Of a stretch of 64,000 nucleotides of DNA, positions 9,862 to 22,344 are shown in pieces. This DNA comes from an uncultured Desulfofustis sp. (GTDB lineage Bacteria > Desulfobacterota > Desulfobulbia > Desulfobulbales > Desulfocapsaceae), in contig CAJQNS010000061.1 in assembly GCA_905479735.1 (NCBI GenBank), positions 1-64,000 of the forward strand, given 5' to 3'. Position numbers and translations under genes: made by a program. The stretch's first letter is position 1; every line of letters begins with the position of its first letter. The notes beneath the pieces are model-generated. The model made no database searches. It was not told where the DNA came from and worked only from the letters and a program-made list of their open reading frames with translations.

Positions 9862-11073
9862 TTAATCTTCCCCAACAAGATTTCGGTCACTCTTGGGAGC
9901 TTGCAGCGGCGACCAGCCGTGCAACCCCCAGAGCACTGCCAGCAGTCCCAAAAAAGTGAACCCGGCAGAGGCTGCAGCCACCCCAGCAATTCCGCCCATA
10001 CCCCAGAGAAAACCGGCAATGAGAACGCCAACCATTCTGCCGACTCCGGCGGTGGCGTAGTAGCCAGACATCATCGTTGCCCGGGCCTGCGGAAGTACTT
10101 CCGTACAAAGAGGAAAACTGGTGACAATGGTAAACTCGAACGACAGAAATACCAGGAACAACCCGACCATTGCCAGACCCAGACTCTGGCCGATAACGGG
10201 CAGCAGCAAATAGGCGGATATGGCCATCAGAGGGCCCAGTATGATTGCTCTTTTCAGTCCAAGTCGATCAGAAAACAGGGCGGTCATCGATTCTCCAAGC
10301 AACTCGGCACTTCCTATGGCCACGGTGGAAAACCCCAGCGCAACAATCGAGACATTGAAATCCTGCTCAAACCAGGCACCGTAAACCACAAACAGGCAAT
10401 CATTGGCAACCGATATGAAGAAGCCGAAGGCCAGCATTCCTGCGGCCGGCCTGGATTTTGCGAGCTGCATCATGGAAGCCAGGAAGTTCACTTTCCCCCG
10501 CTGCCTTTTAGAACGGGCCTTATCGGCGGGAATCATCACTCCCATAAGCACCCAGCTTATACCGCCGAGCGCGGCAAGCAGATAGAAAGAGTTTCCCAAA
10601 CCGGCATGTTCGATAACCAGAGCCAGGGCCGGGATGCCAATCAGCGTACTGCCGGCCCAGGCCGTTTCTGCAATGCCTATAATCCGCCCCCTGCGTTCGA
10701 AACTGACGTTATTGCCGACGAAGGCCTGAATCGCCGGATCAAATAAAGTTTTTCCAAAACTGGCAACGACCAGACCAACGAATACCGGCCAGTACGCAGG
10801 CACCAACCCGCAGATGAGCATACCCAGCGCCAGCATGGCCAGACCCGCCCGCATCATCATCTTGTAGCCGTAACGGTCCGCCAGGGGACCGGCGAAAATA
10901 CCAAGCAGGGAGGTAAACTGACCCGCAGCAATGATCGAGGTGATGGCTCCGAGCGGCACCTCGAGCCCCCTGCTCAACGCCGGAGCGAAGGGGTAAACAA
11001 ACCGGCGACCGGTATTGAGAAGCAGCCTGAAGGCGGTGATTAGCAGAATCTGTCGTAAAAAGGCTCGGGTCAT
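9862..11073 (-). CDS. MFS transporter, drug/metabolite efflux type
   Basis: A 403-residue protein with about 12 membrane helices. The MFS loop signature between helices 2 and 3 is visible as GPLADRYGYKMMMRAG (near residue 62-77), and the second-half equivalent is ALFSDRLGLKRAIILG (about 270). The N-terminal half includes LDP-like FGKTLFDPAIQAFVG and the sequence FERRGRIIGIAETAWAGSTL, frequent in MFS exporters. The substrate cannot be inferred. The gene stands alone between the PilZ gene and a gene-poor gap. Confidence 0.8.
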   Translation of the reverse strand: MTRAFLRQILLITAFRLLLNTGRRFVYPFAPALSRGLEVPLGAITSIIAAGQFTSLLGIFAGPLADRYGYKMMMRAGLAMLALGMLICGLVPAYWPVFVGLVVASFGKTLFDPAIQAFVGNNVSFERRGRIIGIAETAWAGSTLIGIPALALVIEHAGLGNSFYLLAALGGISWVLMGVMIPADKARSKRQRGKVNFLASMMQLAKSRPAAGMLAFGFFISVANDCLFVVYGAWFEQDFNVSIVALGFSTVAIGSAELLGESMTALFSDRLGLKRAIILGPLMAISAYLLLPVIGQSLGLAMVGLFLVFLSFEFTIVTSFPLCTEVLPQARATMMSGYYATAGVGRMVGVLIAGFLWGMGGIAGVAAASAGFTFLGLLAVLWGLHGWSPLQAPKSDRNLVGED

Positions 11074-11284: not shown

Positions 11285-13459
11285 TCAATTAACACCGTGA
11301 ACCTGGCATTCCTCGCCGCTTGAAATGGATAGTGCGATTTGCTGTTTTAGTGTTCGCTTACCGTTAACGAGCCAATATCTGACCTCACCTGAATCCGCTG
11401 GGGCAACCGCCAGTGTCGATCCGGGGAAATAATACCCATAGTAAGGTCCCTCTTTCTTATACCCATCTACTATTACCGGATAGCTGTCTGATGTTACTTC
11501 ACAGACAATGGCCGGATCTGTAGGAAACTGCTGTTCCATCTCTTTTAATAAATAAGGAATTCGTTCAGTAAAATAGGTCCTCAAGATACCAATATACTCA
11601 TCTCCCTCAGGGTAATCTATGGTTGTCAATATCTTCTGGTAGTAATCCAGCAATTGGGCAACAAATTTTTGGGTTACCCGATGGTTAATGGTTGAAGTAA
11701 AAAGAGTTTTAGTTTGCTCTCTAAATTCTGAATCCTCGTTTATTAAGCGTTTGAATAATCGGACTCGTGCACATTGGTGCGGTTTTTGCCCTTGGTCATC
11801 CATGAAAAAACCAGCGAATGATGGAGGCTGCTCCCAGCGTTCTCGTGGCTCGTCTCTTTCATTTTTTATCTCAACAGGGACATCAATATAACTGTGATCA
11901 AAATCCCAGCTGTACCAGAAATACCTGCTATCACGACTTGAACCTTTGAGAAGAACTCCCTGACAATAATCCGTAGTGGCATTTATCATGTATGAAAAAA
12001 TTGACTGAACAAGATTTTCAAGGTCAACAAATTGTGACGCGTATTGTTCGTCCATCTCCACATCTTGTTTGATGTCATTTAAAAAACCTGAAAAAAAATG
12101 GTAATCCGCCTCGTGTGGTGTGCCCCTGATCCGGAAATACTGATAATCTTTTTCCGGCAGCATTGCTTTGATCTGTTTTTCGCCAAGATGCGGCACCATA
12201 TAATAAAGACCGAGATTTTGACCATTGAGATACAGCAAACACATCTCCGTCATTGGGGCCAAACCACCTGCCTGCCGAGTTACATCATAAGCAATCGGAC
12301 TGTTCAACGGCCATTGCTTCCATTGAGACTGCTTAACAGCAAGCCGTTTAATTGTTCGGACTGAGCCATCAAAAATCTTATCCGACTCAATCTTCGATGT
12401 GCCATATTCTTCACGGAAATAGAGACGAAAATTAATCAGACCTTGCTCACGTCCGGGATCCCCACCCTGAAGGCGTACACCGCTGAAGGTTGAAAAAACT
12501 GCTTGCCCATCTTTAAAAAACCGGACATAGCCAAGCCGCTCCCATTCCCGGCCATGACCGTCATAATTGGTCAAAATGCCATAATCCTCGGCATAAAGAT
12601 CGATACTCTCTATATCAATAGCAAGAACCGGGATTCTAGCAATGCTGGTTGCGGCTAGAGATTGATCAGATATGTTTAAGTTGTTCAAGAGGTGATGATC
12701 TCTGCTGGCGGTCAATTCAATTGGCGTCTGGCCTTGCTTTTTGTGAAACTTACTTATGCCAACCGATGGTTTTTGCTGAAAAGACAAATTGCTTTTAAGG
12801 TGCTCAGTTTGCTTCAAGGGGTTTATTAAAGCAGCTGATTCGGTATAGGTAATGTTCTTTGACAGGCTGTGACGGAAAAAACTGGAAAAGCCTACCTGGT
12901 CATTAAAAACCAGTGGATGATAGCCATTTTTTAAAAAACCAATACCATAGATGTTTACCGGATATTGCTTGTTGCGGAAGGTAAGCCTCAGTTGAGGATT
13001 AGTACTGTCAGAGTCGATGAAAAATGAGTAACCAAATTTTTCTGATTTAATCTGTGAAGAGACCTGCTCAACCCAGGAACCGTTTTTCATAACTTCTATT
13101 TTGAACCTGACGGCAGGTTCCTGTGATTGCATCTCTATATAACCAAATATCCCGCTCTCTTTGAAACGGTCGAATCTCTCTAGCAAAAGCCATTTGTTTT
13201 TCTCCCGAGCTATGCGCCGGATAAAATCAACCGGATTCGTGGTGATACGACTGGAGATCTGCTTGTTTTCAACAGGTGCAATAGTTCCTGACTTACGCAG
13301 TATTTTACCGGTTTCGCCAAAGGCAAGCAGGGGGGAAGGAATAGTTTTATTCTGAAACAGTTCCCGTGGAGTATCCCAGTAAAAAGCAAGCACAGAGAGG
13401 ATAAGACCGAGAAAAAGCGTTCCGAGAAAAATGAATATTGCTTTTTTCTCCGGCTTCAT
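11285..13459 (-). CDS. CotH-like kinase family protein, membrane-anchored
   Basis: A 724-residue protein with an N-terminal membrane anchor (about residues 8-27), a poorly conserved N-terminal half of about 280 residues, and then a CotH-type domain (residues about 285-600). CotH hallmarks are GVRLQGGDPGREQ and FRLYFREEYG near residues 330-355, LGLYYMVPHLGEKQIK around 415, and the metal-site-like WYSWDFDHSY near 525. CotH proteins are atypical secretory protein kinases first known from spore coats. The usual basic residues before FRLYF (K-S type) are replaced by I-N here, so catalysis is uncertain. It starts 3 bases after the DUF4956 gene and ends the cassette. Confidence 0.8.
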   Translation of the reverse strand: MKPEKKAIFIFLGTLFLGLILSVLAFYWDTPRELFQNKTIPSPLLAFGETGKILRKSGTIAPVENKQISSRITTNPVDFIRRIAREKNKWLLLERFDRFKESGIFGYIEMQSQEPAVRFKIEVMKNGSWVEQVSSQIKSEKFGYSFFIDSDSTNPQLRLTFRNKQYPVNIYGIGFLKNGYHPLVFNDQVGFSSFFRHSLSKNITYTESAALINPLKQTEHLKSNLSFQQKPSVGISKFHKKQGQTPIELTASRDHHLLNNLNISDQSLAATSIARIPVLAIDIESIDLYAEDYGILTNYDGHGREWERLGYVRFFKDGQAVFSTFSGVRLQGGDPGREQGLINFRLYFREEYGTSKIESDKIFDGSVRTIKRLAVKQSQWKQWPLNSPIAYDVTRQAGGLAPMTEMCLLYLNGQNLGLYYMVPHLGEKQIKAMLPEKDYQYFRIRGTPHEADYHFFSGFLNDIKQDVEMDEQYASQFVDLENLVQSIFSYMINATTDYCQGVLLKGSSRDSRYFWYSWDFDHSYIDVPVEIKNERDEPRERWEQPPSFAGFFMDDQGQKPHQCARVRLFKRLINEDSEFREQTKTLFTSTINHRVTQKFVAQLLDYYQKILTTIDYPEGDEYIGILRTYFTERIPYLLKEMEQQFPTDPAIVCEVTSDSYPVIVDGYKKEGPYYGYYFPGSTLAVAPADSGEVRYWLVNGKRTLKQQIALSISSGEECQVHGVN

Positions 13460-13462
13460 TTT

Positions 13463-14161
13463 TTAAATGCCGGTCGACCTGTTGACCATAAGATTGAAAT
13501 TAAATTCGGGATAGGTGTCGCTGATTTTTTCTGTTAATGAGCTGATATCACTCTTTCTTGTTTTATGGAAAACAAAAGTGATACAGATATCTTCTTCGCA
13601 GGTGATGCTATGTAAAGATCCTTTGCGCAGCCATTGTTCACACACCCGTTGAATCTCATTTATTGTTTTCCCCGGATCCTTATTTTTGGGACCCCTCACT
13701 ACCAACATTCCACCATTAAGATTTCCCTTGGTCATAGGGGTAACCCACTCCATCACAATGAGCGCAAGAATGGCAAAAACAGCTAGAATTACAGTAAAGA
13801 TAATGTTGAAAGTGGCACAGGAAAGTGAGGAAGCGATGACCAACATGATGAAGCCAATTTCTTCCGGTTCCTTGATTGGTGTTCGAAAGCGGACAATTGA
13901 CAGGGCACCAAGCAACCCTAGAGACAGTGGCAGAGAAAACTGAATGGTAATAAAAATCACGGTTATGGCGATTGAAAGTAGGGGAAATGCCCTATGTACC
14001 TGACTTCCGGTCGCTCGCCTGGAAAAGAAATAGGTATAAAGCGAAGAAATTGCGAACGCCGAAAGCAAAGATGCGGAAATGACAAAGATAAAGGCTCCTA
14101 TGCCAATATCTTCCACCCTTTGATTCCCCATGCCGGAAATTACCGAATACAAATTATCCAT
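13463..14161 (-). CDS. DUF4956 membrane protein
   Basis: A 232-residue protein with four predicted membrane helices in residues 20-140 and a soluble C-terminal domain of about 80 residues. The motif LGALSIVRFRTPIKEPEE near residue 87 is the hallmark of DUF4956. The C-terminal region (from about GGMLVVRGPKN) looks like a small alpha/beta domain. Function unknown. DUF4956 genes are frequently found between VTC and CotH genes, as here, which suggests a membrane partner, possibly a transport or anchoring unit, in polyphosphate or CotH function. It lies 15 bases after the VTC gene. Confidence 0.85.
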   Translation of the reverse strand: MDNLYSVISGMGNQRVEDIGIGAFIFVISASLLSAFAISSLYTYFFSRRATGSQVHRAFPLLSIAITVIFITIQFSLPLSLGLLGALSIVRFRTPIKEPEEIGFIMLVIASSLSCATFNIIFTVILAVFAILALIVMEWVTPMTKGNLNGGMLVVRGPKNKDPGKTINEIQRVCEQWLRKGSLHSITCEEDICITFVFHKTRKSDISSLTEKISDTYPEFNFNLMVNRSTGI

Positions 14162-14176
14162 TAGAGGCCTCGATGG

Positions 14177-14893
14177 CTATGTTGCAAGTGAGGAGACACA
14201 TCGTTCATATTTAGAGAAACGGTCTTTGTTTACTATATTGCTGGTAAGATAGGCCAGTGCAGCTGGTGGGGCATCATCTTTGCCTTTGATTTCAAATACA
14301 CCCACATCCAAGGCTCGATGAGGAGGTGGTGGCAGAAATTGGGAGTTGGTCCTCTCAACTTTAATATCGCAGTCAAGACTCAACCGCACACCCGTATTTG
14401 AATCAACAAATCTTTTACGAGTGTAAGAAATCTGTATGAATGGTTGCAGGTAAGAAGAAACCTTGGTTTCTTTGGCAAATTGCTGATACCAGTTCCCATG
14501 AAAGGGTGAATTTAAACTATTATCCTTGAGCTCATCGAATCTTGTACTGGTAACCCACCGCCTTTTCAGCCTCTTTGCCCCTACTTTCATTTTTTTTTCT
14601 AAAAAAACGGGGACTTGATTATCATCGCTATAGGGTCGGCCTTCCTTAGTTTCGTACCATCTCACCCGAAACTTGGTTTTGAAAAAATCACTGTTAACCT
14701 TCTCATAGTAGGATCTTGCATCAGCAGCTTCAAGATAAATAGACTGAACGCGGGACTCAGGGTAAACTTCATCTTTTTTACAGATAATTGCCAACCAATG
14801 TTCGATGGAACTCGAAAGAATATGAGGAAAGGTATATTTCTGTTCGAACTCTCCATCTTCCTCAAGCACCTTTGTTAACATGAGAGCACCCAT
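14177..14893 (-). CDS. VTC-domain protein, predicted polyphosphate polymerase
   Basis: A 238-residue single-domain VTC protein of the triphosphate-tunnel superfamily. The tunnel strands are recognisable: EFEQKYTF (residue 14), VQSIYLEA (49), KFRVRWYET (73), VFLEKKMK (95), KRRWVTS (110), QISYTRKRF (152), RLSLDCDIK (169), VFEIKGK (195) and KDRFSKYERC near the end. These supply the Lys/Arg and Glu residues that bind ATP and polyphosphate. In yeast Vtc4 this domain makes polyphosphate from ATP. The start is the ATG at 14893 (AGGG upstream); a second ATG at 14881 is possible. First gene of the VTC-DUF4956-CotH cassette. Confidence 0.82.
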   Translation of the reverse strand: MGALMLTKVLEEDGEFEQKYTFPHILSSSIEHWLAIICKKDEVYPESRVQSIYLEAADARSYYEKVNSDFFKTKFRVRWYETKEGRPYSDDNQVPVFLEKKMKVGAKRLKRRWVTSTRFDELKDNSLNSPFHGNWYQQFAKETKVSSYLQPFIQISYTRKRFVDSNTGVRLSLDCDIKVERTNSQFLPPPPHRALDVGVFEIKGKDDAPPAALAYLTSNIVNKDRFSKYERCVSSLAT

Positions 14894-15490: not shown

Positions 15491-15775
15491 ATGCCACTCC
15501 TTATGGATGTAAGCAAGATCGTAGAGTTAAAAAAAGACTATTTAATTGAACGGATAGATGGAGAAATCACGGTTTATCATCCGACTTTGACCACCGCCGT
15601 CTATCTCAACGAGACAGGTGCCCTGATCTGGGAATTGTGTGACGGCAAGCGCACAATTTTAGATATTATCGAGGCGCTGAGCGAACAATACCCTGAGAGC
15701 CGCACGCAGATAGAGACTGATGTAAAAACACTGATCACTCAACTGATCGAGCGCGATATCGGCGAGTTGAAATAA
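15491..15775 (+). CDS. PqqD-like small protein
   Basis: A 94-residue PqqD-family protein. The family pattern is clear: a beta hairpin with ITVYHPTLTTAVYLNETGALIWEL, then helices with DGKRTILDIIEALSEQYPE and a final segment ending LIERDIGEL. Such proteins bind leader peptides of ribosomally made peptides as RiPP recognition elements, or occur in polysaccharide-linked clusters with an HprK-like kinase. A later in-frame ATG at 15503 is an alternative start. It leads a three-gene unit with 30 and 10 bases between genes. Confidence 0.82.
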   Translation: MPLLMDVSKIVELKKDYLIERIDGEITVYHPTLTTAVYLNETGALIWELCDGKRTILDIIEALSEQYPESRTQIETDVKTLITQLIERDIGELK

Positions 15776-15805
15776 ACCGTTTCATTGCCATAGGCAAACC
15801 ACTCT

Positions 15806-16645
15806 ATGAATCTTTTTACCGTCGCATTTGCCGGATCGACCGTGACGCTTCTCTACGACACCAAAGATGCGCGGGAATTTCTGACACTACTTTTTAGAGA
15901 TGTTACCCAGCAAACCAGCGGCGACGTGCAGCAGCATCAGCTTTCCTTGCTTGCCGACAAAGGACTTAACGTGTATCGGCTTCAGGCTGGCAACACCCAG
16001 CTTTGTCGCGGCCGCCTGGGTGTCCGATTCGCTGCCCATATATACGATACGGTGATTTTCCACCTTTTGAACAGGGCCGAAAACGGAATCGCTTTGCATG
16101 CCGGTGCTGTCATCTGTAACGATCTGATAATTCTGCTGCCGGGCCAAAGCGGTGCAGGGAAATCCACGCTGACCAGTTGGCTCACCTGCCACAATTGTTC
16201 ATACCTGACCGATGAGTTGATATTCATATCTATTCACGATCCCCGGGAAATAAAGTATTTCAGCAGACCGCTTTGCCTAAAACCGGGATCGATGCACTTG
16301 TTTGAAGAACTGCTGGCATCAGATAAGAAAGACGATTTTCTCATGGACCTCCACGGCGCGGTTATTCCCCATCGACTGCTCAATCCGGAATTCAAAGAAC
16401 CCCAAGCGCCGCCTGCACTGATCATCATGCCCGACTATGCCCCGGAATCGGACCCCGAAATTGAACCCATCAGCAGAGCCCGTCTAGGTACCCTTTTGAT
16501 GGCTTGTCATGTCAACGCCCGCAACCTGGTCGATCACGGCTTTAGAGAGGTCCTGGATATTGCCAGGTCCACGCCGGCCGTTCGTCTTCGCTACAACAGC
16601 CTGCAAGATGCATCCAGCCTCCTCGATGCATTTTTGCAAGAATAG
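15806..16645 (+). CDS. HPr-kinase-like P-loop protein
   Basis: A 279-residue protein resembling the catalytic half of HprK. The P-loop is LLPGQSGAGKSTLTSWL (near residue 110-126). GIALHAGAVICNDLIILLPG before it and YLTDELIFI after it correspond to the family pattern in which a His and an Asp-Glu act in phosphotransfer and metal binding. HprK proper phosphorylates the sugar-transport protein HPr. Shorter relatives beside PqqD and nucleotidyltransferase genes occur in RiPP and polysaccharide contexts, and in lasso-peptide clusters some phosphorylate the peptide. Its substrate here is unknown. Confidence 0.78.
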   Translation: MNLFTVAFAGSTVTLLYDTKDAREFLTLLFRDVTQQTSGDVQQHQLSLLADKGLNVYRLQAGNTQLCRGRLGVRFAAHIYDTVIFHLLNRAENGIALHAGAVICNDLIILLPGQSGAGKSTLTSWLTCHNCSYLTDELIFISIHDPREIKYFSRPLCLKPGSMHLFEELLASDKKDDFLMDLHGAVIPHRLLNPEFKEPQAPPALIIMPDYAPESDPEIEPISRARLGTLLMACHVNARNLVDHGFREVLDIARSTPAVRLRYNSLQDASSLLDAFLQE

Positions 16646-16655
16646 AGCCGGCTGA

Positions 16656-17792
16656 ATGATCCGCAAAATTCTAGGGTTGTGCAGTCGCGATCATGGTCAC
16701 CCGGCCATGTACGAGATGCTTGACCGGGGGCTTACGGACTTTAAATCCAGACAATTGTCATGGGAATCGCTGCTGCATGTAGCCGAAGGTCACGGGGTCG
16801 CACCGCTTCTCTACAAGCATCTGGAGTACCTTGGTTTCACTCTGCCCAAAAGCCACCATCGTATCCTGCGCTCGCTCTATCAGCGTAGCCGACTGTCCAA
16901 TGAAATCAGGTACCGGGCCCTAAATGAAATTCTTGGTTTGTATCAGCAAGAGAAGATCGACAATCTGTTGGTCAAGGGCATCGCTCTGGCCAATTTTGTA
17001 TATACTTCTAAAAGCTTAAGACCTATGCGCGACATCGATATCCTGGTCCGTAAAAAAGATCTTGAAAAAGCTAAGCAGGCACTCCTCGAAATGGGCTATC
17101 GAGAAGAGCAAGCTCATGAAATACCGGAGTATTACTACCATCTACCGCCGCTTATAAAAACTATCGACGGTCTCCCCGTCACTATCGAGCTGCATCATAA
17201 CCTGCTTCCGCTAGATCCATCCTACCCTCACTGGCCTCTGGAAAAATCTGTTGATTCGGCCTTGCCGATTACGCTAAATGACTTTGTGGCAGCTTCGCTC
17301 AGTCTCGAAGACAATCTTTACTACCTCTACCTTCATGGCTTTCGTTCTCCACTAACCTACGAAGAGTTCCGCTTTATTCACATTGCCGATATTGTCAGTC
17401 TGACAGAAAAATATTACCAGCGGATCAACTGGGAACGCGTGCACGCACGGTTCGATGGATTGCCCGCCATACTCTCCCGTTTTCACTTCATAACCCCGTG
17501 GCGGGACAAGATAATCAGCAGTCTCAAGCTCGATATTCGCAGAGCACCGCGCCGACCGGGCATTGGCTATCGTGGCTGGCCTCGACACAAGATAAATAAC
17601 ACCCCCCTCAAGAAGATCGTGCCATTGATATTCGAAACCTTCTATCCCTCCCAATGGTGGACCCAGATTTACTATCGGCCCCTCAATGGCATTCACTATC
17701 TCAAGGTTCGCTTCTTCACCCACCCTCGTGCCGTCTGGCGCTGGTTCAAAGCCTATGTTCGCCAATACTTTCAAAAGTGCAGCAGCGCCTGA
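16656..17792 (+). CDS. NTP_transf_5-type nucleotidyltransferase family protein
   Basis: A 378-residue protein of the uncharacterised nucleotidyltransferase family often found with PqqD and HprK-like genes. The motif LLVKGIALANFVY followed by LRPMRDIDILVRKKDLEKA (near residues 108-135) contains the D-x-D catalytic aspartates of the polymerase-beta-like fold. ITIELHHNL-like TIELHHNLLP near residue 185 supplies the third acidic position. LEDNLYYLYLHGFRS is the family's later helical signature. The C-terminal 80 residues are basic. The transferred nucleotide and acceptor are unknown. It ends the three-gene unit. Confidence 0.78.
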   Translation: MIRKILGLCSRDHGHPAMYEMLDRGLTDFKSRQLSWESLLHVAEGHGVAPLLYKHLEYLGFTLPKSHHRILRSLYQRSRLSNEIRYRALNEILGLYQQEKIDNLLVKGIALANFVYTSKSLRPMRDIDILVRKKDLEKAKQALLEMGYREEQAHEIPEYYYHLPPLIKTIDGLPVTIELHHNLLPLDPSYPHWPLEKSVDSALPITLNDFVAASLSLEDNLYYLYLHGFRSPLTYEEFRFIHIADIVSLTEKYYQRINWERVHARFDGLPAILSRFHFITPWRDKIISSLKLDIRRAPRRPGIGYRGWPRHKINNTPLKKIVPLIFETFYPSQWWTQIYYRPLNGIHYLKVRFFTHPRAVWRWFKAYVRQYFQKCSSA

Positions 17793-20088: not shown

Positions 20089-21072
20089 TTAGAGATACCC
20101 CTCTTCCCGGTACCAGGCCGCCGTGCGGCGTAATCCCTCATCGATGCTGATATGCGGTGCATAACCGAGATCTCGTTTGGCCTTGTCTATTGAAAAAGCG
20201 CGGTTTTGGCGATACCAGTCAACCCGGCGGGGAAAGATCGGCGGGGTGATTTTGAATGGTTTGCATACCTTCTCGCAGATATGGCCCACGATGATTACCG
20301 GTGTCACTGGAAAATGTGGGATTTTAACATCCACTTTGAGGGCTGCAGCGGTTTTCTGGACCAGCGTCTCGATTTCGATATATTCCTCATCGGCGATCAG
20401 ATAGGCTTCGCCGACTCCCTTGCCAGGTTCCTGTGCCAGGACATGGGCATCAACGAGATGATCAATATAGAGGGGGTGATAGAGGGTTTTGCCGTTGCCA
20501 AACATCGGAAACATCCCCTTGTTAACTCTCTTGAAAATCATGAAAAAACGTTCGGGATCACCCGGGCCATAGATGGCCGCCGGACGCAGAATGGTAGTTT
20601 CCATACCTTTCTGCTGGTACTCCTTGACGATCGGTTCAGCCTCATACTTGGTCTGCTGGTAATAGTCGGCCGCATTGATCGGGCTTTCTTCATTACCCGG
20701 AGGGTTATCGACGTTGCCGTGCACCCCGCAGGTGGAGCAGTAGACAAACTTCTTCACATTCTCACGACGGGCCGCTTCCAGCACGTTTCTGGTACCCTCG
20801 ACGTTGACATCCCAATAGTAGCTGTTCGGCACATTGAGTTGTCTGAACGCCGCCGCCAGATGATGAACAACCTCAATCCCTTTCATACAACGGTCAACAA
20901 CTTCTTTATCTGTAACGGTGCCGATGACCACCTCAGCTCCCCAATCACGAAGCTCCTGGGTCTTCAGCCCTTCCTGGAAATCCAGAGCGACAACCTGATG
21001 ACCATCATCGAGCAGGCGACGGACAAGTGCTTTACCGGTGAACCCGGTTCCCCCGGTAACCAAAATTTTCAT
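20089..21072 (-). CDS. NAD-dependent epimerase/dehydratase (extended SDR)
   Basis: A 327-residue extended short-chain dehydrogenase. The nucleotide-binding motif is TGGTGFTG at residues 6-13, VNVEGTRNVLEAA follows, and the catalytic pattern is CSTCGVHG with YQQTK (Y-x-x-x-K) near residue 145. LRPAAIYGPGD is the typical post-catalytic motif. The ATG at 21072 has GGAG with 7 bases spacing; a GTG lies just before it. Members act on nucleotide sugars or on lipids such as sterol-like 3-beta-hydroxy compounds; the long C-terminus with FPVTPVIIVGHICEK allows membrane association. It follows a glycosyltransferase gene, favouring a sugar substrate. Confidence 0.8.
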   Translation of the reverse strand: MKILVTGGTGFTGKALVRRLLDDGHQVVALDFQEGLKTQELRDWGAEVVIGTVTDKEVVDRCMKGIEVVHHLAAAFRQLNVPNSYYWDVNVEGTRNVLEAARRENVKKFVYCSTCGVHGNVDNPPGNEESPINAADYYQQTKYEAEPIVKEYQQKGMETTILRPAAIYGPGDPERFFMIFKRVNKGMFPMFGNGKTLYHPLYIDHLVDAHVLAQEPGKGVGEAYLIADEEYIEIETLVQKTAAALKVDVKIPHFPVTPVIIVGHICEKVCKPFKITPPIFPRRVDWYRQNRAFSIDKAKRDLGYAPHISIDEGLRRTAAWYREEGYL

Positions 21073-21165
21073 CACTTTACTCCTTTGTTATTGCCGCAGC
21101 CAGGTCACTGGCTGCGACTACTGTACTACTGCGGCTGGAACCGAAGTTGAAAACTGCCGGTCCTT

Positions 21166-22344
21166 TTAGTTTTCAAATTGATGATACAGACGATTCAGCT
21201 GCTGGCCGGCCGAATCGGACGAAAAGTCCTCGCCGGCTCTGGTTCGGCAGAAGGCACCATACTTAAGCCGCGACTCACTATCTGTCAATGCCAAATCGAT
21301 GGCTGCAGCCAGATCGCTGCCTGTCTCGGAAGCTGCATAAAAAGCGTTGTCCCCTAAGAAGGCCCGGTTGTTTTCGGTATTGAAACAGACGACTGCCAGA
21401 CCTGCGGCCATATAGTGAAGTACCTTTCCACTGGCCTCCCCCGCTCCTGACCGCTTAGGTTCGACGGCCAGATCAGCGGCATAGAGCCAACCGCCCAGAT
21501 CACTATATTCGACTTCTCCGGGAAGCACTACCCTGCCGGCCAGCCCCGCGCTGTCAACCATCTCCCTAACCTTCTCAACCGGATAGCCGATCAGGGCGAA
21601 CACGGTATCATTGCGTTTCTTCAGCACCGGTTCCACGGCCTCTACCAGCAGGTCAACACCTTTTCCAGGAAGCAGTGAGCCGGTATAGATAACCACCTTC
21701 TTGTCAGCAGGAAGCCCAAGTTTCTCTCTTCCCCCAGCGCCGTCAGCCGATTTGAAAAACGACGAGGGTACCACATCTCCAACCAGTTCGAGTTTGTCTT
21801 CGCTCACCCGGCAAGAGTGTACAAGAAAATCCAGGCTGGCCTGTGAGGAACAGACTATCCTGTCCGGCATCAGGCAGATAAGCCGCTCTAGAAAATAAAA
21901 AAAACTCAGCATGAACGGTATCCTTTTAAACGTTCCATAGGAGCGCAGCTCGCCCGACAGACTTCCCTGGATATCCATGATAAGGGTTATTCGACGCCAG
22001 AATAGCAGGATTTTCACCCACCAGCCGATCAGTCCGCCTTCATGCAGATGGCCGTGAATAATGGTCGCTCGTTCCTGCCAGGCGACTTTTAGGACCAGGA
22101 AAAAAAGTAGCACATCGGCCAACGGTTTAAATGGCGAGAAACCGGCGCCGGTCTTGGTGTAGCCGGGAATCGGCCAGATCCTGTGAACCTCGAGCCCCTG
22201 AACATCGCCGCCAAGTCCGTAGGTACAGAGAATGACCCTCCTGCCGGTTGCAGCCAGCCCGCGAATTTCATTGAGAATACGTATGTGACATCCCCGGTTG
22301 GAAAAAAATGGCGTCGGCCCTATATGGATGATCGGTGCCGTCAT
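21166..22344 (-). CDS. Glycosyltransferase family 4-type protein
   Basis: A 392-residue GT-B glycosyltransferase. The N-terminal domain has HIRILNEIRGLAATGRRV, as in GT4 enzymes. The C-terminal domain has VVIYTGSLLPGKGVDLLVEAV (near residue 225) and the donor-site pattern VEPKRSGAGEASGKVLHYMA with the E-x7-E spacing near residue 300. Probably transfers a sugar during envelope polysaccharide or glycolipid synthesis. The acceptor is unknown. It lies 54 bases after the GlpD-like gene and 93 bases before the epimerase gene on the same strand. Confidence 0.83.
   Translation of the reverse strand: MTAPIIHIGPTPFFSNRGCHIRILNEIRGLAATGRRVILCTYGLGGDVQGLEVHRIWPIPGYTKTGAGFSPFKPLADVLLFFLVLKVAWQERATIIHGHLHEGGLIGWWVKILLFWRRITLIMDIQGSLSGELRSYGTFKRIPFMLSFFYFLERLICLMPDRIVCSSQASLDFLVHSCRVSEDKLELVGDVVPSSFFKSADGAGGREKLGLPADKKVVIYTGSLLPGKGVDLLVEAVEPVLKKRNDTVFALIGYPVEKVREMVDSAGLAGRVVLPGEVEYSDLGGWLYAADLAVEPKRSGAGEASGKVLHYMAAGLAVVCFNTENNRAFLGDNAFYAASETGSDLAAAIDLALTDSESRLKYGAFCRTRAGEDFSSDSAGQQLNRLYHQFEN

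Follow-up and report, generated by a model that had tools for sequence, protein, structure and literature searches.

The window analyzed here, a 64,000-nucleotide stretch of DNA from an uncultured Desulfofustis sp. (contig CAJQNS010000061.1 of assembly GCA_905479735.1), contains three adjacent genes for a VTC-domain protein, a DUF4956 membrane protein and an anchored CotH-like protein, and this trio is a conserved, widespread module across many bacterial phyla. The module is real. The minus-strand open reading frames of VTC (14177-14893), DUF4956 (13463-14161) and CotH (11285-13459) form a tight operon in the order VTC-DUF4956-CotH, with intergenic gaps of 15 and 3 bases, respectively, as described in the initial annotation of this DNA. 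All three exceeded the curated Pfam cut-offs, with E-values of 5.9e-23 for VTC (PF09359), 7.9e-13 for DUF4956 and 3.2e-12 for CotH, and no NCBIfam family was matched by the window VTC or the window CotH. When compared with a congener (L038) that shares approximately 79% DNA identity and is syntenic across much of the surrounding 20 kilobases (kb), the ratios of nonsynonymous to synonymous substitution rates (dN/dS) were approximately 0.13 for VTC, 0.07 for DUF4956 and 0.15 for CotH, which indicates purifying selection. Thus, the trio consists of real genes under selection. A phage or plasmid origin was rejected, given that there were no plasmid matches and that the single viral-contig match is probably host DNA.

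We counted VTC, DUF4956 and CotH in 243 genomes of the host's order, of which 19 carried DUF4956, 18 VTC and 24 CotH. DUF4956 was found in all 18 VTC-carrying genomes and CotH in 17 of them. In the genomic regions fetched from this order, the three genes were together except at contig ends and in two loci: CotH of L027 was located approximately 8 kb from the other cassette genes, and the CotH position of L029 was occupied by an 892-residue protein that was not recognized as CotH. A scan across phyla, in which a DUF4956 profile was run against one genome per species, yielded at least 578 relatives. The hosts of the best 80, which were kept, included Spirochaetes, Acidobacteria, Desulfobacterota, Verrucomicrobia, Alphaproteobacteria (including SAR11), Myxococcota, Bacteroidota, Chloroflexi, Planctomycetes, Calditrichaeota, Firmicutes, Nitrospina, Campylobacterota and others. 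Among the 51 well-flanked loci, i.e., those with at least 4 kb on both sides, VTC was found within 5 kb in 48, CotH in 45 and both in 42, in at least five gene orders. The pairwise distances correlate over 64 loci (r = 0.89 for VTC-DUF4956; 0.70 and 0.73 for the pairs with CotH), compared to a maximum of 0.16 in 1000 permutations, with shared host ancestry explaining part of the observed correlation. The initial annotation had called for such a neighbor count and had named rare co-occurrence as evidence against its interpretation; the outcome is the opposite. Adjacency by chance, with no joint function, is scarcely credible: no point in its support was found, and it was rejected because the genes co-occur and, with their order shuffled, remain adjacent across phyla.

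We tentatively propose that the trio is a trans-membrane phosphate-delivery module for surface glycans or proteins, a reading that we consider plausible but by no means secure. Inside the cell, VTC would polymerize the gamma-phosphate of adenosine triphosphate (ATP) into polyphosphate, like yeast Vtc4. It would work against DUF4956, in which R91, R93 and K97 are located at the end of helix 3 that is predicted to face the cytosol and the ACT-like domain is predicted to be cytosolic as well, and DUF4956 would pass the chain, or the chain's phosphate, across the membrane in a role like that of the membrane part of Vtc1/3/4. Outside, the anchored CotH would use the phosphate or place it on a surface polysaccharide or protein, and, where present, a secreted pyrophosphatase and metallophosphatase would remove the products or undo the modification. 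At the sequence level this proposal is supported by the operon, conservation, catalytic residues, anchors and signal peptides, and co-inheritance; the direction of the VTC reaction, the passage through DUF4956, and the activity, donor and substrate or target of CotH are what we infer. A more specific version, in which VTC and DUF4956 export polyphosphate, CotH takes polyphosphate, not ATP, as its donor outside and the secreted enzymes finish the cycle, appears rather doubtful.

The VTC-domain protein (14177-14893, minus strand; 238 amino acids) is predicted from its Pfam match, Vtc4 profile match, tunnel residues and hydropathy to be a soluble, cytosolic polyphosphate polymerase of the TTM fold. 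A profile of 19 VTC relatives matched yeast Vtc4 (3G3Q) at 2.5e-19. The tunnel and catalytic positions K200, R264, R266, E279, K281, K294, Y359, R361, R373, D377, E426, K428, S457 and K458 of Vtc4 are all identical in the window VTC, and these 14 positions vary little or not at all among 76 VTC relatives, which bears out the earlier observation that the charged tunnel residues are intact. Joint replacement of three of them (R264A/R266A/E426N) impairs Vtc4 (PMC9911596). Judged from these residues, the window VTC likely polymerizes phosphate from ATP. It consists of the VTC domain only, with no SPX domain detected by Pfam and no hydrophobic segment or membrane helix detected by hydropathy. As the host genome carries a PPK1 gene too, bulk storage need not be the task of VTC; a role for VTC as a replacement of PPK1 is unsupported, as PPK1 is found in the host and in at least 9 of the 17 other VTC-carrying genomes of the order.

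The DUF4956 protein (13463-14161, minus strand; 232 amino acids) scored 48.9 bits against PF16316, compared to a curated cut-off of 30.6, and its AlphaFold2 model (mean predicted local distance difference test score, pLDDT, of 86) consists of five helices and a predicted cytosolic ACT-like domain. The helical membrane part (residues 21-144; 13730-14101) comprises helices at residues 21-46, 55-73, 77-93, 99-116 and 120-144 in the model. The signature GALSIVRFRTPIK (residues 85-97; 13871-13909) contains R91 and R93, found in 89 of 89 relatives, and K97, found in 88. Three Anaerolineae homologs (L074, L078 and L107; 448-465 amino acids) carry a signal peptide and an extra domain ahead of helix 1, which in the one scanned (L074) resembles 3keto-disac_hyd. 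Given this outside domain and the five helices, the N-terminus of DUF4956 would be outside and its C-terminus inside, and R91, R93 and K97 would therefore lie where helix 3 ends on the cytosolic side. The C-terminal ferredoxin/ACT-like domain (residues 149-226; 13484-13717), identified from the model and by Foldseek, retrieved small alpha/beta folds that included ACT domains and the C-terminal domain of MgtC (2LQJ); this small domain dominated the search with the whole model, in which the membrane part was barely probed. A search by sequence for a relative of solved structure returned none. It should be noted that a DUF4956 gene of L005/L023 (G316), located at the end of a contig where neither VTC nor CotH is within reach, has a far stronger Pfam score (1.9e-43) and perhaps represents another subfamily.

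Comparison of DUF4956 with MgtC by hhalign revealed a weak similarity (probability 54, E-value 1.3e-4) over 189 columns covering the membrane part and the C-terminal domain, and no Pfam match to PF02308 (MgtC) was found up to an E-value of 1. This similarity, which agrees with the description of SIR_1592 in the literature (PMC12345266), the ACT-like domain and the ExExK motif of the window VTC are all consistent with an alternative in which VTC is a soluble, CYTH-like tripolyphosphatase or polyphosphate sensor, DUF4956 is an MgtC-like transport regulator and the cassette mounts a phosphate-stress response. However, the residues for polymerization by Vtc4 are invariant in the 76 relatives, the first ExExK position is R rather than E in most of them, and CotH and the secreted enzymes would be unaccounted for, which makes this alternative improbable.

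Returning to the phosphate-delivery proposal, the anchored CotH-like protein (11285-13459, minus strand; 724 amino acids; Pfam PF08757) would act on the other side of the membrane. Its only hydrophobic segment is the N-terminal anchor at residues 8-26 (13382-13438; helix 3-28 of the model), which, together with the Pfam match, agrees with its earlier description as an anchored CotH-like protein. Such an N-terminal segment was found in 85 of 94 CotH proteins vs. 1 of 85 VTC proteins, which places CotH and VTC on opposite sides of the membrane. The anchor is followed in the model by an extracytoplasmic beta domain (residues 103-177; 12929-13153), a kinase-like domain (residues 278-644; 11528-12628) and a C-terminal beta domain (residues 651-722; 11294-11509). 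The kinase-like domain matched the profiles of 5JD9/5JDA at 2.7e-41, and the model matched B. cereus CotH (5JDA) by Foldseek at 4.9e-11. Its catalytic segment, from D497 to W518-D519-x-D521 (11903-11971), is invariant in the 18 window-type CotH proteins; D497 and D519 are the counterparts of D228 and D251, the catalytic residues of the Ser/Thr kinase CotH of B. subtilis (PMC7821199), and position 500 is Gln. Two types of CotH are found in the module, one with a catalytic Asp, to which the window protein belongs and whose typical gene order is VTC-DUF4956-CotH, and the other with His at that position and the typical order DUF4956-CotH-VTC.

In eight sister operons (L027, L028, L032-L036 and L039) DUF4956 is accompanied by gene X (272-297 amino acids), which in seven of them is located between DUF4956 and a shorter CotH. 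Protein X consists of a helix, an outside beta domain, a second helix and a domain related to the C-terminus of DUF4956 (best E-value 1.5e-10), and the two X proteins tested matched no Pfam family. The window cassette lacks gene X. Alignment of X with the N-terminal part of five CotH sequences, including the window protein, gave an hhalign probability of 97.6 and an E-value of 3.5e-12. Since the window CotH, without X, possesses the related N-terminal beta domain, the kinase seems to carry the outside part of X, either as a fusion or as a duplicate.

Inorganic pyrophosphatases are usually cytosolic. We noticed that, apart from glycosyltransferases, the gene families recurring next to the cassettes encode two secreted phosphate enzymes, a metallophosphatase and an inorganic pyrophosphatase. 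The metallophosphatase family (motif GHxYG...GNHD) is found in 15 of the 80 loci, from different phyla (L057, L066, L072, L080, L082, L083, L086, L097, L098, L100, L105, L108, L116, L117 and L122), in 12 cases within 65 base pairs (bp) of a cassette gene, and most members have a signal peptide or lipobox as judged by eye. Inorganic pyrophosphatases (PF00719; E-values down to 1e-35), with signal peptides or lipoboxes likewise judged by eye, are found in six loci of SAR11 and Bacteroidota (L079:9132-9815, L080:14055-14684, L087:5040-5645, L116:14227-14892, L102:16819-17433 and L055:705-1412), and four of them directly adjoin or overlap a cassette gene. L102 belongs to Dokdonia pacifica DSM 25597, a marine species in culture. 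These signal-peptided partners place phosphate turnover outside the membrane, and the secreted copies of a usually cytosolic enzyme adjoining cassettes suggest that pyrophosphate or polyphosphate is found there. This lends support to the coupling to phosphate chemistry outside the membrane that the initial annotation had put forward. Our literature search returned nothing that treats secreted pyrophosphatase and polyphosphate jointly. The cassette of L030 comes immediately after acetylation genes of the MBOAT and AlgX-like kinds, whose logic is a donor inside, a membrane protein and a transferase outside; by analogy, the proposed phosphate module would follow the same logic.

The adjoining secreted pyrophosphatases could also be explained if CotH were an outside nucleotidyl or adenosine monophosphate (AMP) transferase that released pyrophosphate for them to clear, with VTC and DUF4956 in a separate role. 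AMPylation is possible for protein-kinase-like folds, and AMP was present in the solved structure of B. cereus CotH. The cassette, however, encodes no source of ATP outside, VTC would be left without a role, and CotH of B. subtilis is a Ser/Thr kinase (PMC7821199). We consider such an AMP transfer very unlikely.

Another alternative is that the trio regulates an exopolysaccharide machine, with the ACT-like domain of DUF4956 sensing a ligand and CotH phosphorylating a synthase or a glycan-binding protein so that the two tune the amount of polymer, and with VTC supplying a signal, not an exported polymer. Consistent with this are the description of the trio beside pel in streptococci, clostridia and bifidobacteria (PMC7112168), which also upholds the earlier remark that the three families have been seen side by side, the frequent glycosyltransferase, Wzy and MBOAT neighbors, and the mutants of S. 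intermedius, in which Pel increased upon loss of the DUF4956 gene and decreased upon loss of CotH, and both deletions lowered aggregation in one medium (PMC12345266). However, PelG was found above the cut-off in none of the 243 genomes of the host's order, including the host genome (90.65% complete), though 18 of them have VTC and DUF4956, and a Pel accessory locus was thus rejected for the host genome. Furthermore, the neighboring genes vary so widely that no single polymer is common to the cassettes, and the secreted pyrophosphatases would be left unexplained. Regulation of this kind is therefore conceivable, but we regard it as unlikely. The spread of the trio beyond Pel loci contradicts the search made in this most recent experimental study, which found no synteny of the trio outside the Pel locus (PMC12345266).

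Several observations weigh against phosphate delivery by the trio. The strongest, as far as a central role of polyphosphate is concerned, is that deletion of the VTC gene (SIR_1593) of S. intermedius left aggregation and Pel without reported change (PMC12345266), although the test conditions may have hidden one. In addition, TTM folds also comprise triphosphatases, and the window VTC begins with ExExK, a start absent from most relatives. In the window CotH, Pro 423 replaces the Glu that follows the GxY motif in 85 of 95 relatives, and in the common cassettes of the order DUF4956-CotH-VTC, His mostly takes the place of the catalytic Asp, so not all CotH proteins may be kinases. Some loci have VTC and DUF4956 with CotH unrecognized, CotH being absent from 6 of the 51 well-flanked loci, and neither the phosphatase nor the pyrophosphatase was found at the cassette locus of the window. 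Taken together, the idea of a complex in which polyphosphate made by VTC is moved or sensed by DUF4956 and coupled to phosphorylation outside, which the initial annotation had advanced, is partly supported.

The compartment outside the cytoplasm is thought to lack ATP, which is a problem for kinases located there, and to our knowledge the placement of polyphosphate outside the cell by bacteria is not explained by PPK enzymes. If the phosphate-delivery proposal is true, a single machine made up of a polymerase inside, a conserved membrane protein and an outside kinase fold would resolve the two problems together.

The surroundings of the cassette are largely kept in L038. An MFS transporter gene (9862-11073), also on the minus strand, lies downstream of CotH; its counterpart in L038 shares 85% identity and starts 6 bp past CotH. 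Genes for PqqD, an HprK-related kinase A and NTP_transf_5 (15491-17792), divergent from the cassette, are also kept, and the epimerase and glycosyltransferase genes at 20089-22344, syntenic with L038, are a possible surface-glycan context.

Among known systems, MgtC/SapB resembles DUF4956 in its layout of helices and an ACT-like domain and differs in its signature motif. The NELoc-2 locus of C. perfringens encodes VTC, a 222-226-residue membrane protein, CotH, a hypothetical protein, a HEAT protein and a chitin-synthase-like glycosyltransferase (PMC2879425), a layout that is the same as that of L109, with neighbors different from those of the window; judged by size, membrane location and gene order, CP4_0461 and CP4_0464 of NELoc-2, named tubulin/FtsZ (PMC2879425), are probably misnamed DUF4956 proteins. 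The spore-coat kinase CotH of Bacillus (5JD9/5JDA; PMC7821199) shares the fold and both catalytic Asp residues with the window CotH, which differs in its membrane anchor, extra beta domains, Gln 500 and Pro 423 and in the absence of a sporulation context.

The closest counterparts in gene content are the accessory genes PPP-DUF4956-CotH(-DUF4832) of Gram-positive pel loci (PMC7112168; SIR_1591-1594, PMC12345266), in which the same three families are adjacent, CotH is secreted and DUF4956 has several transmembrane segments and an intracellular ACT domain. In contrast, the host's order is without PelG, the window order VTC-DUF4956-CotH lacks DUF4832, and the window CotH bears an N-terminal beta domain related to the separate X protein. 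The association of the trio has thus been published in one context, that of the pel loci, while no earlier description was found in the literature searched for the Pel-independent spread, the relation to the X domain, the two types of CotH or the secreted partners, pyrophosphatase and phosphatase. Unlike the eukaryotic Vtc1/Vtc3/Vtc4 complex, the window VTC has neither SPX nor membrane helices, and the membrane part would be provided by DUF4956, for which no relation to Vtc1 was found in this analysis. Shared with that complex are the TTM polymerase, here a predicted one whose tunnel residues are the same, and the proposal that polyphosphate synthesis is coupled to passage along a basic path through the membrane (PMC9911596).

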